Assembly (NCBI RefSeq): GCF_000170755.1
Contig: NZ_ABCK01000012.1
Coordinates: 62,001-126,000 of the forward strand
DNA from: Lentisphaera araneosa HTCC2155
GTDB lineage: Bacteria; Verrucomicrobiota; Lentisphaeria; Lentisphaerales; Lentisphaeraceae
Direction of reading: 5' to 3'
DNA: 64,000 nucleotides
Below are positions 3,172 through 9,266 of the stretch, in pieces. Numbering within the stretch: the first letter of the stretch is position 1; each line of letters opens with the position of its first letter. A program made the translations under genes and the position numbers. The notes beneath the pieces were generated by a model. The model had not been told where the DNA came from. It did no database searches and saw only the letters and a program-made list of their open reading frames with translations.

Positions 3172-3235
3172 CTACAGATGTAGCTTGCGCTCTAAAACTA
3201 CAAATGTAGTATAAGCAATGAACTACATATGTAGT
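3172..3235. promoter_or_regulatory. three BlaI/CopY-type operators upstream of the secreted-protein gene
   Basis: Three near-perfect dyads with core TACA-NN-TGTA lie at 3173-3182 (TACAGATGTA), 3199-3208 (TACAAATGTA) and 3224-3233 (TACATATGTA). Two are extended to ACTACA-NN-TGTAGT. Centre-to-centre spacing is about 26 and 25 bp, roughly two and a half helical turns. TACA-NN-TGTA is the established core recognised by BlaI/MecI/CopY winged-helix repressors, and such a repressor is encoded at 4030. The sites lie 70-130 bp upstream of the 3302 start codon, where they would overlap a promoter. Confidence 0.85.
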
Positions 3236-3301
3236 ACCTATTAATTTTACTTAAATACATTTTTTTAAACACGGTTAAACAATAAAAAAAAGGACAGGAA
3301 A

Positions 3302-3949
3302 ATGAAAAAGTTAACTATGAGAAAAAGCTTATGCCTTGTGACCTTAAGTCTATTTGTTGGAATGAGTTCAATTTACAGTAAAGAGACGGAATCTGTGAGT
3401 AAAGTCGATGACAGTTTCAAAGAAATTGATGGAGTTAAAATCAAAAATATATTTGAAAAGTACGCTAAGGAAATTGAGCCACTCAAGAATGGTCATGATC
3501 AAAAAATAGAGCTGAATCAAAACTTAGTTGCAGGGAAATTGTCGAGAGAGGAATATAATAATTCTCAAAAGCACCGTTTTGATTTAGGGGAATCTCGCGA
3601 AGGGCTGGGGGTTGCCTTTTTTCGGACCAATGAAGACACCTATGGTAAACTGTACTATACTTGGGGAGTAGGCCATAAATTGCATATTCAAGAAGTTATT
3701 GTTTACGATAAAAACTCTCAAGAGAAACAACTCAAGTCTTTAAATAATCTAGTGTTATCTCCAGCTGGCCATGTCGATTTAGACTCTGGATTTGGTTCAG
3801 GAATTCCAGGTTTAGGTAAAGCTGCTAAAAATGGTACCTATAATCCTGATATTCACTGTAGTTCCGGGGATGGAGTAGATGATGCAAGAGCTTACCTCAG
3901 AAGTACAGGTGGTGGAGTTCTAATGTTCCCTGTAAGTTTAGGTAATTAA
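3302..3949 (+). CDS. secreted protein of unknown function, paralogous to the sensor domain of the adjacent M56 protein
   Basis: 215 residues, with a purine-rich ribosome site (AGGACAGG) just before the ATG. A signal peptide (residues 1-27, LVTLSLFVGMSSIYS) precedes a soluble domain of about 165 residues. The domain has conserved-looking stretches YGKLYYTWG, GHKLHIQEVIVYD, NPDIHCSS and DGVDDARAYLR. I do not recognise a named family. The whole domain from about residue 50 recurs, at roughly 80% identity by eye, as the C-terminal 170 residues of the M56 protein at 4460. The position downstream of three BlaI-type operators and next to blaI/blaR1-like genes suggests this is the induced output of that system, as BlaZ is for BlaR1. 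It could be a ligand-binding protein or an enzyme; catalytic residues are not evident. Confidence 0.75.
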   Translation: MKKLTMRKSLCLVTLSLFVGMSSIYSKETESVSKVDDSFKEIDGVKIKNIFEKYAKEIEPLKNGHDQKIELNQNLVAGKLSREEYNNSQKHRFDLGESREGLGVAFFRTNEDTYGKLYYTWGVGHKLHIQEVIVYDKNSQEKQLKSLNNLVLSPAGHVDLDSGFGSGIPGLGKAAKNGTYNPDIHCSSGDGVDDARAYLRSTGGGVLMFPVSLGN

Positions 3950-3960
3950 TATCCTCTCTC

Positions 3961-3999
3961 ACTACATGTGTAGTTGAATTTTATTGCTACATGTGTAGT
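3961..3999. promoter_or_regulatory. two BlaI/CopY-type operators upstream of the repressor gene
   Basis: Two copies of TACATGTGTA lie at 3963-3972 and 3988-3997 (extended ACTACATGTGTAGT and CTACATGTGTAGT), 25 bp apart. This is the same spacing as the upstream triplet. They lie in the short gap after the secreted-protein gene and directly before the repressor start at 4030, which fits autoregulation of the repressor/sensor pair. An ATG at 3991 lies inside the second operator and is therefore an unlikely start codon. Confidence 0.83.
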
Positions 4000-4029
4000 G
4001 TGATTCGTATCAGGAAATTCCTATCAAAA

Positions 4030-4440
4030 ATGGACGCTTATATGGATAAAAAAAATCTCTCTGAATCAGAATGGACAGTTATGGAAGTCTTGTGGGAGCA
4101 GTCACCGCAAACAGCTAAGGATGTTAAGATCGCCTTGGAAGAGCCCAAGCAGTGGGCGATAAATACAGTGAGGACATTATTGACAAGGCTGGTCAATAAG
4201 GGCGCTCTTGAAACAGCAGACAATCAATCCGGTGTGACGACTTTTAAACCCTTGATCTCTCATGAAAATTGTATTCGCGCAGAAAGCCAGTCGTTTTTAA
4301 AACGCATATTCGGAGGGTCTTCCATGCCGCTATTGGTACACTTTTCCCAAAATGCCGATCTTTCAGAGGATGACGTTGAAGAATTAAAGAAAATTCTCGA
4401 TGAATCGGTAAAAAATAAACAGGTTAATAAGGATAAATGA
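4030..4440 (+). CDS. blaI: BlaI/MecI/CopY family transcriptional repressor
   Basis: 136 residues from ATG 4030 (132 from ATG 4042); the family is usually 120-140. The winged-helix domain begins LSESEWTVMEVLWEQSPQTAKDV and continues through NTVRTLLTRLVNKG, both diagnostic for Penicillinase_R. The C-terminal dimerisation part is SQSFLKRIFGGSSMPLLVHF and EDDVEELKKIL. In this family the dimer binds TACA-NN-TGTA dyads and is cleaved or released when the cognate BlaR1 protease is activated. Five such dyads occur nearby. The longer frame from 3991 is rejected because its start lies inside an operator. The M56 gene follows 19 bp after the stop. The symbol is by family resemblance only; a link to beta-lactams is not implied. 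Confidence 0.88.
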   Translation: MDAYMDKKNLSESEWTVMEVLWEQSPQTAKDVKIALEEPKQWAINTVRTLLTRLVNKGALETADNQSGVTTFKPLISHENCIRAESQSFLKRIFGGSSMPLLVHFSQNADLSEDDVEELKKILDESVKNKQVNKDK

Positions 4441-4459
4441 TCAGAATGGTGAGTATAGC

Positions 4460-6073
4460 ATGACAGTAATCAACGATCTGTTTGAATGGGTTGTGACATC
4501 CAGTCTGCATGGTTCCATTCTTATACTAACAATACTGTTAATACAAGGGATCTTTAAAAAGTGGCTGACGTCGAGCTGGCGCTATGCACTTTGGCTACCG
4601 CTCATCCTTACATTCTTTCTGCCAAAGTGGGATCTGCTTCCTAGTCATTATGGCGTTTCTATTGACTCAAAACCTGTGATAGTTCAAAATTCCATACAGC
4701 AATCTTTTTTAAGTCAAACAGATCAGCCGGACTCAGGTTTGGATACCAGGGCAGGGACTATTTCGAAACCAGTTAATGGCAAGGAGTCATCTCCGGGAGA
4801 GTCATACCTGCCACTAGTTTGGTTTAGTGTATCACTGCTTTTATCCATACTTGTACTGGGGTCCTTTTTCTCTATGAGACGTCAAATTCAGCTGAGTTCA
4901 CGACCCGTAAGTCGCAAGCTGCTTCTCCGCATAGAGACATTATCAAAAAATATAGGTTTGCGTAACCCGCCCAAAGTCATTATTTCCCCGAGTGTCAATG
5001 GTCCAGCAGTCTGCGGCTTGTGGCGTCCGGCTCTGATGCTCAGTGAGTGGTTTGAAGATGAACTTACGGAAGAGGAACAAAATATGATCCTGGGGCATGA
5101 ATTGATGCACATTCGCCGCTGGGACCTGCCGATAAACGCGCTCTTTTATTTTATTGTTATACTAAATTGGTTTAACCCTTTGCTATGGATTGCCTTTTAT
5201 AAAATTGGCATTGATAGAGAAGCGGCATGTGATGAGCAGCTTATAGGCAGCTCACAATGGAGTAGCGTTGAGTATGGCAAAGTTCTCTTAAATATGAACT
5301 CAAAACAAAGCTTTAGTGGACTGGCTCTTGGTTTCGTGGGGATTCTTAATAATTCACACTCCTTGCGTTATAGAATTCGTCAGATTGCTTCGCAGCAGCA
5401 ATTAAACTCTTCGTTTAAGCCATTTTTCCTTATTGTCATAGTCTTTTTTGTAGTATGGGGATTGGTCAAACCTAAACTCATTGCTGCAGAGCAAACTTTC
5501 AATTCAGAAAGTGTCATTGAGAGAATTTCACAGATGGGCAAGTCAAGTAGGAAGGATCAGGCTTTTATAAAAGGCCTTTTTCATAAGTACGCTAAGGAAA
5601 TTGAGCCTCTTAAGAATAGTGATCAAAAAATACAACTTAATCAAAACCTGATCGCGGGGAAATTGTCGAGAGAGGAATATAATAATTTTCAAAAGCACCG
5701 TTTTGGTTTAGGGGAATCTCGCAAGGGGCAGGGCCTTGCTTTTTTTCGTACAAATGAAAACACTTATGGCAAACTGTACTATACTTGGGGCATAGGTCAT
5801 AAAATACATATTCAAGAAGTCATCGTTTACGATAAAAACTCTCAAGAGAAGCAACTCAAGTCTTTAAGTAAGCTAGTGTTGTCTTCAGCAGGCCATGCCG
5901 ATTTAGACTTAGCTTTGGGCTCTGGAATTCCAGGTTTTCGAAAAGCCGTTAACAATGGCACCTATAATCCCGATATTCACTGTAGTTCTTGGGATGGAGT
6001 AGATGACGCAAGAGCTTACCTCAGAAGTGAGAGTGGAGGAGTTCTTTTATTTCCTATTTGGACTCCAAATTAA
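4460..6073 (+). CDS. BlaR1-like M56 membrane metalloprotease/sensor with a novel sensor domain
   Basis: 537 residues. Hydrophobic segments lie near residues 10-30, 38-55, 113-138, 222-245 and 317-337. The zinc motif HELMH is at 213-217, with the expected downstream REAACDEQ glutamate, placing it in family M56 (BlaR1/MecR1). After the last membrane helix the extracytoplasmic part (about 355-537) is a near copy of the secreted protein encoded at 3302. In BlaR1/MecR1 this position is held by a class D beta-lactamase-like domain. By analogy, ligand binding outside would activate the cytoplasmic protease and inactivate the BlaI-type repressor. The gene directly follows the repressor gene. The ligand is unknown. 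Confidence 0.87.
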   Translation: MTVINDLFEWVVTSSLHGSILILTILLIQGIFKKWLTSSWRYALWLPLILTFFLPKWDLLPSHYGVSIDSKPVIVQNSIQQSFLSQTDQPDSGLDTRAGTISKPVNGKESSPGESYLPLVWFSVSLLLSILVLGSFFSMRRQIQLSSRPVSRKLLLRIETLSKNIGLRNPPKVIISPSVNGPAVCGLWRPALMLSEWFEDELTEEEQNMILGHELMHIRRWDLPINALFYFIVILNWFNPLLWIAFYKIGIDREAACDEQLIGSSQWSSVEYGKVLLNMNSKQSFSGLALGFVGILNNSHSLRYRIRQIASQQQLNSSFKPFFLIVIVFFVVWGLVKPKLIAAEQTFNSESVIERISQMGKSSRKDQAFIKGLFHKYAKEIEPLKNSDQKIQLNQNLIAGKLSREEYNNFQKHRFGLGESRKGQGLAFFRTNENTYGKLYYTWGIGHKIHIQEVIVYDKNSQEKQLKSLSKLVLSSAGHADLDLALGSGIPGFRKAVNNGTYNPDIHCSSWDGVDDARAYLRSESGGVLLFPIWTPN

Positions 6074-6296: not shown

Positions 6297-7724
6297 ATGA
6301 TGAAGCAAAAAATATTACTTCAAATACTTGTTTTTTTGGCCTTTCTATCGGCTATAAATACCACCATAGCTCAAGATAAAACAAAGCCCAATTTCATTAT
6401 CATCTTTACCGATGATCAGGGCTATGCTGACCTCAGTTGTTTCGGCGGAACACATGTCAGCACACCTCGAATTGATCAGATGGCTGCGGAAGGCGCAAAA
6501 TTGACCAGTTTTTATGTGGCGGCATCAGTGTGTACCCCCTCGCGAGCTGCCTTGATGACTGGGACATATCCCAAACGAATTGATATGGCTAGAGGTTCCA
6601 ATTTTGTCGTTCTGCTGGCAGGAGACAAAAAAGGTTTGAATCCTAAAGAAATTACCATTGCAGAAGTTCTTAAAAATGAGGGCTATATAACGGGCTTATT
6701 TGGTAAGTAGCACCTGGGAGATCAGCCTGAGTTTTTGCCAACACGACAGGGCTTTGACGAGTTTTTTGGACTTCCTTACAGTCACGATATTCATCCCTAT
6801 CACCCGCAACAAAAGCATTTCAAGTTTCCGCCTTTACCCTTACTTGTTGGGGAAGAGGTAATAGAAATGGATCCCGATGCTGATTATTTAACCAAGCGTT
6901 TTACCGAACGTGCGGTGCAGTTTATCGAAAAGAATAAGGATGAGCCCTTTTTTATCTACATGCCACACCCGATTCCCCATGTGCCGCTGCATGTTTCGCC
7001 CGCTTATATGAAGGATTTACCGGAGGGACTCAAAACAAGTTTAAGTAAAGAAGATAATTATATTGATTATACAGCTCGAAAGCAACTGCTATCTCGAGCC
7101 ATTGCCGAGGTCGACTGGTCTGTGGGACAAATTCTTGATACTCTCAAAAAACATGGGATCGACGATAATACACTAGTGATTTTTAGCTCGGATAATGGTC
7201 CGGCACTAGGTAAAGCTACTCCCTTGAAGGGAAAAAAGGGGCAAACCTTTGAGGGCGGTATGCGCGTTCCCACTGTGATTCATTGGCCGGGGAAGATTCC
7301 CGACGGAATAGCAAACGATGAAATCATGAGCACTATGGATCTTTTGCCGACTTTTGCGAAATTAGCCGGTGCAGAAGTACCCTCCGATCGAGTGATTGAT
7401 GGAAAGGATATTTGGCCCGTCATTAGAGGTGAAGAAAAATCTCCGCATGAGGCATTCTTCTATTATAAATCTAACAAGCTTGAAGCAGTGCGATCCGGCA
7501 AATGGAAGATGCACTTAAAAAAGCAGGGTAAAAAGAATAAAATAACAACGATTCTTTATGACCTGGAACAAGATATAGGTGAAACGAAGGATGTATCAAA
7601 AGCTCATCCTGAAGTGCTTAAGCTTTTACTCGCCTACGGCAAGGCTTTTGAGAAAGATTTGGAGCTGAATAAAAGACCGGCAGCTTTTGTCGAAAACCCT
7701 CAGCCACTGAAGAAAATTAAATAA
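6297..7724 (+). pseudogene. sulfatase (S1 family) interrupted by one in-frame TAG
   Basis: The two reading frames 6297-6710 and 6735-7724 are the same frame, separated only by TAG at 6708-6710. The intact paralogue at 39770 has Trp there, in GKWH (TGG to TAG). Otherwise the protein is complete, about 475 residues: signal peptide 1-25 (ending TTIAQ), calcium-binding FTDDQ (DD 39-40), formylglycine site CTPSR with Cys79, and SSDNGP and GGMRVPT near the end of the alpha/beta domain. A single transition with no other damage suggests a recent nonsense mutation, a sequencing error or, least likely, readthrough. The IDS-like sulfatase starts 12 bp downstream. Confidence 0.85.
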
Positions 7725-7736
7725 TAAAGACCTGAA

Positions 7737-9140
7737 ATGAAAAATATACTATTCCTAATCATACTGACTTTAGCTACCTTAAACGCTGCTGATAAACCTA
7801 ACGTTTTGATCATAGCAGTGGATGACCTCAATGATTGGATAGGTGTCATGGGTGGTCACCCCCAGGCAAAAACACCAAACATTGATCGTCTAGCAAACCG
7901 GGGAATGCTTTTTACAAATGCTCATTGTCAGTCACCTGTTTGTGGCCCTTCAAGAGGGAGCATGATGTCATCTCTGTACCCAAGTACCACAGGTATTTAT
8001 TTTTTAGGCCCGGGTTTGAAAGATTCGCCAAAGACGAAAAATCATCTAGTCATGCCCAGTCGCTTTGAAGACGAAGGCTATCAGCTAAGTGCTGCAGGTA
8101 AGCTGTGTGGAGGCCGTGGGGAAAATAAAAAATATTTTAAGGAATACGGCGGTGATTTTGGTGGCTTTGGTCCTCTTCCTAAAAAGAAAATCTCTTCATT
8201 TCCAGGGATGAGATTGTGGGATTGGGGTGTTTACCCAGAACGTGAGGAGCAAACGCCGGACGCAAAAATTGCCGCATGGGGCGTGAATAAACTCACGCAA
8301 AACTACGAGAAGCCCTTCTTTATGGGTGTTGGGTTTTACCGTCCACATGTACCTCAATTCGCGCCACAGAAATGGTTTGATATGTATCCTTTGGAGACTA
8401 TACAAATGCCAAAGATGAGGGAGGCTGATATAGCAGATATACCTCAATACGGCATCGATCTAACGCGAGAAAAACACGTAGCTCCCACTTATGAATGGGC
8501 TCTAAAAAATAATGAAGAGAAGAAGCTCGTACAATCTTACCTCGCTTGCGTTTCTTTTGTCGATGCGCAGATAGGAAAAGTTTTAGATGCCCTGGATGCC
8601 GGCCCCCACAAGGAGAATACTTTCGTCGTGCTCTATAGTGATCATGGCTTTCACTTGGGAGAAAAAGAACGCTATGCCAAGCGCAGCATTTGGGAAGATG
8701 GAACTCGTGTTCCTATGATTATCTCCGGCCCGGGACTTAAGCCTGGCGTAAGTCATAAGCCAACACAGCTTCTCGATATATACCCAACACTACTGGAACT
8801 CACGGGGCTTAAAGCCGACTCCAAACTTGAAGGACACTCCCTCGTAGCGCTTTTGCGAAACCCGCAAAGTGAATGGCCCCATTATGCACGTTCGAGTTTT
8901 GGACCGGGTAATTATGCCATTATCTCTGAACGCTATCGCTTTATTCAATACAATGATGGGTCTGAAGAGTTTTATGATCATAGCAAAGATACTCATGAAT
9001 GGAGTAATCAGATCAATAATCCGGAGTACGCTTCTATTATTGCTAAGCACCGTTTACAGGTGCCCCGGGAGCGAGCTCCTATTCTCGGTGAAAATTGGAC
9101 AGGTCATAAAGCATACGACGCAGCGGAGCAGAATAAGTAA
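7737..9140 (+). CDS. secreted sulfatase, iduronate-2-sulfatase-like
   Basis: 467 residues. The signal peptide is 1-18 (LATLNAADK), metal-binding Asp29-Asp30 lies in AVDDLNDWIG, and the formylglycine site is CGPSR with Cys69. Later signatures include GFYRPHVP, LYSDHGFHLGE and EDGTRVPM. The AVDDLNDWIG opening and the YRPHxP segment are typical of iduronate-2-sulfatase-like enzymes, so a sulfated uronic-acid substrate is plausible, but specificity cannot be read from sequence. It follows the broken sulfatase by 12 bp and probably shares its promoter. Three fragments of close relatives of this gene are scattered in the window (23046, 31690, 45708), so this paralogue type has been repeatedly copied and broken here. 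Confidence 0.88.
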   Translation: MKNILFLIILTLATLNAADKPNVLIIAVDDLNDWIGVMGGHPQAKTPNIDRLANRGMLFTNAHCQSPVCGPSRGSMMSSLYPSTTGIYFLGPGLKDSPKTKNHLVMPSRFEDEGYQLSAAGKLCGGRGENKKYFKEYGGDFGGFGPLPKKKISSFPGMRLWDWGVYPEREEQTPDAKIAAWGVNKLTQNYEKPFFMGVGFYRPHVPQFAPQKWFDMYPLETIQMPKMREADIADIPQYGIDLTREKHVAPTYEWALKNNEEKKLVQSYLACVSFVDAQIGKVLDALDAGPHKENTFVVLYSDHGFHLGEKERYAKRSIWEDGTRVPMIISGPGLKPGVSHKPTQLLDIYPTLLELTGLKADSKLEGHSLVALLRNPQSEWPHYARSSFGPGNYAIISERYRFIQYNDGSEEFYDHSKDTHEWSNQINNPEYASIIAKHRLQVPRERAPILGENWTGHKAYDAAEQNK

Positions 9141-9266
9141 TTTGTACTTATGGGAGAGTCAAATAATTCGCTGTATGCCTTAGCCTTCACTCAGCTTATA
9201 TTTTTATAGATAAGTAAAATTAAAAACTGATGCTTGATGGGCTTAAAATGAATCTTTCATTTAATT

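Follow-up and report, generated by a model that had tools for sequence, protein, structure and literature searches.

To our knowledge, BlaR1 has been known almost only as a penicillin sensor of Gram-positive bacteria. The closest described systems to the locus analysed here, BlaR1/BlaI/BlaZ(BlaP) and MecR1/MecI/mecA, combine an M56 gluzincin receptor that carries an extracytoplasmic C-terminal sensor, a BlaI-family repressor with TACA-NN-TGTA operators, and an exported target with a domain from a family related to the sensor's. BlaR1, a domain-swapped dimer, spans the membrane with four full helices and also has a re-entrant loop; it is cut by signal peptidase near its last helix, whereupon the sensor is shed (PMC9834060). 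Three operators are present in the bla divergon of B. licheniformis (PMC3305447). In the transmembrane regulator RsgI6 of Clostridium thermocellum, the outside domain belongs to GH10, shares 57% identity with the secreted xylanase Xyn10D and binds Xyn10D's type of substrate (PMC4711584).

The window, by which is meant the whole 64,000-nucleotide stretch of Lentisphaera araneosa HTCC2155 DNA that was analysed, comes from a genome of 6.02 Mb in 81 contigs and contains a three-gene cassette with the same components as the BlaR1 and MecR1 systems, the operators being candidates (Table 1). Its genes are all co-directional, and encode an exported protein, a BlaI-type repressor and an M56 receptor, in that order. 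However, sensor and target are here 75% identical copies of an unclassified domain in which no beta-lactamase or PBP can be recognised, and the gene for the exported protein lies upstream in the same direction instead of being divergent. As in RsgI6/SigI6 and Xyn10D, the outside domain of a regulator resembles a protein that the same species secretes, but RsgI6 is an anti-sigma factor with a known glycoside hydrolase domain, and its partner gene lies outside the cassette. The cassette is flanked by a gene for a DUF1592-type cytochrome protein (272-2917) on one side and by a run of sulfatases (from 6297) on the other. The sulfatase at 6297-7724 is found in two neighbouring ORFs (6297-6710, matching profile positions 1-99, and 6735-7724, matching positions 113-301), which could reflect a frameshift, a sequencing error or a decaying gene.

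Table 1. Features of the cassette in the window, and of the corresponding genes at locus L130 of genome G466
Feature	Position	Strand	Basis
Three BlaI-type operator dyads, candidate	3172..3234 (3172-3183, 3198-3209, 3223-3234)	.	Exact matches, 5' of exported-protein gene
Exported 215-aa protein, putative signal peptide and shared domain	3302..3949	+	75% match to receptor C-terminus
Two BlaI-type operator dyads, candidate	3962..3998 (3962-3973, 3987-3998)	.	5' of blaI-receptor unit
BlaI/MecI-type repressor, start 4030 or 4042	4030..4440	+	Penicillinase_R 1.6e-31
M56 receptor-protease, 537 aa	4460..6073	+	Peptidase_M56 1.1e-51
HELMH zinc motif (H213, E214, H217)	5096..5110	+	Invariant in 63 M56 proteins
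BlaR1 autocleavage-equivalent position, predicted Gly294-Ile295	5339..5344	+	Counted from conserved Arg
Last transmembrane helix, residues 318-336, then LIAAE	5411..5467	+	Hydropathy
Periplasmic sensor domain, residues 354-537, copy of exported protein	5519..6070	+	Alignment; homologues in L130
L130 blaI	8747-9157	-	
L130 exported protein	8188-8721	-	
L130 M56 receptor	6626-8149	-	

A first-pass annotation of this DNA had placed an M56 protease at 4460 and a BlaI-type repressor between the two domain-bearing genes, and both assignments are borne out. The third ORF matches the full Peptidase_M56 domain (E 1.1e-51), with the multi-pass membrane core and HEXXH...E zinc site of the BlaR1/MecR1 gluzincins. 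Its catalytic set is complete: H213, E214, H217, E254, D258 and R305 are invariant among the 63 M56 proteins compared, with a spacing that matches H201, H205, E242, D246 and R294 in the cryo-EM structure of BlaR1 (PMC9834060), and a search with the M56 core profile A3 finds the BlaR1 structure 8exp at E 9e-28. The NCBIfam model blaR1_generic covers residues 12-341 only, at 149.5 bits against a cutoff of 400. Hydropathy analysis gives four segments (10-28, 119-137, 228-246 and 318-336). By homology to BlaR1, the re-entrant part probably includes the segment at 228-246, and the second helix, near 38-56, presumably fell below the hydropathy threshold. Because the shared domain comes after the last helix, the same homology puts it outside the cytoplasm. 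The receptor's G294-I295 is the counterpart of BlaR1 Ser283-Phe284, with a hydrophobic P1' residue kept in close relatives, and the LIAAE motif that comes after the last helix looks like a site for signal peptidase.

The middle ORF aligns with Penicillinase_R (PF03965) over 115/115 positions (E 1.6e-31), including the winged-helix and dimerisation domain of BlaI and MecI, and with MecI itself (1okr; E 2.9e-17). As the listed start of this ORF (3991-4440) falls within the operator dyad at 3987-3998, the true start is probably the ATG at 4030 or 4042. Where BlaI is cleaved between N101 and F102, this repressor has H-F (codons 4339-4344), with Phe kept at P1' and His in place of Asn at P1.

Nearby dyads had likewise been mentioned as sites for the repressor, and comparison with other genomes supports them as BlaI-type candidates. 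Five exact CTACANNTGTAG dyads occur at the locus, spaced 25-26 bp apart in the exported-gene group and 25 bp apart in the blaI group, and the window's dyad count was reached by 0 of 100 shuffles. The rest of the genome contains seven more CTACANNTGTAG matches, and a reversed-pattern control also gives seven; the excess of dyads is therefore at this locus. A whole-genome scan detected no paired dyads elsewhere, and no further regulon members for this BlaI are evident from the genome-wide dyads. In the 62 M56/BlaI loci gathered across the phylum Verrucomicrobiota, TACANNTGTA lies within -150 to +60 of the blaI ORF start in 24. It also occurs 15 times elsewhere in the same 778 kb, and three of these occurrences are the operators of the exported gene in the window. 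This association with blaI makes the dyads before both transcription units credible as BlaI operators, and the predicted sites have the TACA-NN-TGTA form at both own and target promoters, as in BlaI/MecI systems. The window is unusual in having dyads before a second gene as well as before blaI.

The tails of the 63 M56 proteins include PBP (4), carboxypeptidase-like, Ig-like, secretin, STN, ExbD, ankyrin and SecDF domains, as well as others and some without a name; secretin core, STN, PBP, ExbD, SecDF head, ankyrin and Ig-like domains are all observed in the range L054-L113. A PBP-type sensor is absent from most, and this diversity suggests, at the level of sequence, that the Verrucomicrobiota M56 receptors are a broad and mostly undescribed family of BlaR1-type sensors. 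The first-pass view of the window's sensor as an unrecognised domain stands, but an M56 receptor with such a sensor is not unusual by itself. The rarity is the copy of the sensor next door: among the 62 loci, the window alone has a strong match between the receptor tail and a neighbouring non-M56 gene. The other pairs resemble it in their M56 core, catalytic residues, adjacent BlaI and, often, the same operator, whereas they have no strong exported sensor copy within about 6 kb and their dyads lie by blaI. Copying of the sensor from a neighbour as a general M56 habit was rejected, as it was not seen at E < 0.01 in the other loci; the exceptions are tandem M56 duplicates, two weak matches (L074 and L092) and a probable split gene (L063/L064).

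Several of these loci have features of their own. The genome of the window has a second BlaI/M56 pair (L056, G000 contig C19, 5753-8749), which is flanked by two small membrane-protein ORFs with similar N-termini and no Pfam match; its dyads are at the blaI ORF start only, and counterparts with related tails are found in both congeners (L054 and L055). In L063 (5977-7759), an M56 gene with a truncated tail is followed by an ORF that matches the secretin-type tail found in the L064 receptor; this is probably a split gene, and possibly a real fission. Tandem M56 receptor pairs behind one blaI, with tails 30-35% identical, are present in L058 (6004-9413) and L078 (5818-9758).

In the window, the exported protein, which has a single, N-terminal hydrophobic segment (residues 10-24), and the receptor C-terminus share 75% identity over 186 residues (E 3e-99). 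The duplication had been described in the first-pass annotation as a C-terminal domain of ~170 residues with about 80% identity; the copy is real, extending over ~184 residues, and the identity has been corrected to 75%. At the codon level, the two copies have ~80% DNA identity, with dN ~0.15, dS ~0.66-0.75 and dN/dS ~0.2, values that indicate an old duplication with both copies under purifying selection. A recent duplication or an assembly artefact is ruled out by the dS of ~0.7.

Sequence and profile searches of Pfam (to E 10), NCBIfam, PHROGs and the PDB returned nothing above noise for the shared domain, and no class A/C/D beta-lactamase or transpeptidase match was found in Pfam, NCBIfam or the PDB. 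At the sequence level, the receptor thus has no recognisable C-terminal beta-lactamase/PBP-like penicillin-binding sensor of the BlaR1/MecR1 kind. AlphaFold models of the two window copies are uninformative (pLDDT 33), and a relationship visible only in the fold may exist. These results, including the HMM check that had been suggested, agree with the earlier proposal that the BlaR1 plan is built here with an unrecognised domain; the known beta-lactamase/PBP fold that would have spoken against it did not appear in the sequence searches. A secretin origin is not supported (hhalign of A1 against the secretin-type tails of the nearest M56 relatives, probability 0.2%); as both profiles are thin, a very distant link is conceivable. 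No relatives of the domain were detected in genome-contig, viral-contig, plasmid and phage collections, and no M56 core in viral contigs. Class-wide and phylum-wide searches with a two-copy profile gave weak matches only; the best of these (L006, E 5e-4) has other long frames opposite it and was judged to be chance. The domain is very rare, with two genomes found, and functional inference consequently rests on two loci.

The second genome, G466, was the only one among 387 genomes of a verrucomicrobial order to give two matches to the two-copy profile, 1.3 kb apart. Its receptor is the one further M56 protein with this C-terminal domain that was recovered by the search proposed in the first-pass annotation. 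Locus L130 is a tight operon of blaI, exported protein and receptor behind the dyads CTACAATTGTAG and CTACAACTGTAG, 25 bp apart; the parts are those of the window, but the gene order is different and the genome is distant. Identity to the window's counterparts is 60% for BlaI, 39% for the M56 core and 43% for the sensor. The exported copy in G466 is missing ~33 central domain residues of its receptor through an in-frame deletion, and this gap cautions against a simple view of same fold and same ligand. The receptor is followed, in the same direction, by genes for two exported proteins that resemble each other and share the N-terminal motif LTVQEAAELVEKAN (L130:3991-6535). As further searches of the family (its other 75 genomes) and of the class (384 genomes) gave no more instances, the distribution of the cassette is patchy, with horizontal transfer a likely route.

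Very probably, the locus is a BlaR1-type cassette in which receptor and exported protein share a domain and are co-regulated. BlaI bound at the five operators would keep the exported-protein gene and the blaI-receptor operon repressed. On binding of an extracytoplasmic signal to the C-terminal domain of the M56 receptor, the zinc protease would become active in the cytoplasm, leading to cleavage of BlaI and to derepression of both transcription units. The product induced would be a soluble, exported form of the receptor's own sensor domain, which would most likely bind, and perhaps process, the same ligand in the periplasm, clearing or buffering it; removal of the ligand would then be both the answer to the signal and the means by which the receptor is shut off. 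BlaI cleavage, induction, the common ligand and titration are steps that we infer, and a role for the exported copy in ligand sequestration or feedback is put forward tentatively, at slightly below an even chance. The first-pass suggestion of a glycan or an envelope signal as the ligand is a guess. The shared domain, the operators, the catalytic residues and the matched copies in a second genome support this reading. Against it are the ~33 residues missing from the centre of the G466 exported copy, which is odd if sensor-like folding or binding is needed, and the His at P1 of the expected cleavage site in the repressor.

The two domain copies are 75% identical within the window and 70% identical within G466, as compared with 40-42% for each between-genome pair. 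Among informative ungapped columns, 27 support within-genome pairing, one supports pairing of orthologues and none supports the third topology, and both alternatives to within-genome pairing are rejected by the AU test (p 5e-5). A segment of ~15 residues in both window copies is missing from both G466 copies, which also have a three-residue gap in common. This likeness within genomes may be due either to gene conversion (concerted evolution) or to repeated duplication. As same-genome copies are far more alike than their counterparts, it is suggested that sensor and exported protein are kept matched in each genome. The pattern could arise if the exported domain bound the receptor's near-identical domain in mixed dimers, activating or inhibiting it directly with no small ligand; this is considered unlikely, as is the corollary that each lineage keeps its pair matched by the need of the partners to fit. 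The 70-75% identity within genomes against 40-42% between them, the common lineage-specific indels and the AU result are consistent with such binding, and BlaR1 itself offers a precedent as a domain-swapped dimer with a sensor sheddable by signal peptidase (PMC9834060). However, gene conversion between neighbouring copies gives the same pattern without functional matching, and a further objection is that the exported copy of G466 has lost central residues. A self-matching system built from a new domain family on a BlaR1/BlaI chassis, with the exported protein as agonist or antagonist partner of its own receptor and with concerted evolution holding the two alike in each lineage while lineages drift apart, in the manner of self or kin recognition pairs, seems quite improbable.

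A second alternative is that the exported protein acts as an enzyme or confers resistance, destroying or blocking an envelope-active compound as BlaZ/BlaP does with penicillin, and that the receptor sensor is a non-catalytic copy. This is exactly the logic of BlaZ and BlaR1, the operator layout resembles the three-operator B. licheniformis bla divergon (PMC3305447), and the sensor of RsgI6 is an analogue, as its GH10 domain is 57% identical to Xyn10D (PMC4711584). The probability is nonetheless low, given that the shared domain matches no enzyme family, is small (~170 aa) with no recognisable active site, and differs between the window copies at scattered positions, with no obvious catalytic-type residue lost in the sensor only. 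It is very unlikely that the exported protein is a by-product of local duplication (sensor to exported protein or the reverse) that is kept alike through gene conversion and has no dedicated role: adjacent direct copies do permit gene conversion, the domain is nearly absent elsewhere and a large in-frame stretch is deleted from the exported copy in G466, but dN/dS is ~0.2 between the window copies, three perfect operators lie 5' of the exported gene, and the cassette recurs in a distant genome with a rearranged gene order.

In the part of the literature covered, no paper was found that describes M56 receptors with a non-beta-lactam sensor copied from the target. The locus places a BlaR1 chassis in another phylum, with sensors that are interchangeable. 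It shows cleanly, in two distant genomes, a regulated exported protein and a receptor sensor built from one domain, and the idea that a sensor is a copy of its effector becomes directly testable beyond beta-lactams. The locus also provides a handle on an unclassified domain, as well as candidate operators for a reporter screen of the signal.
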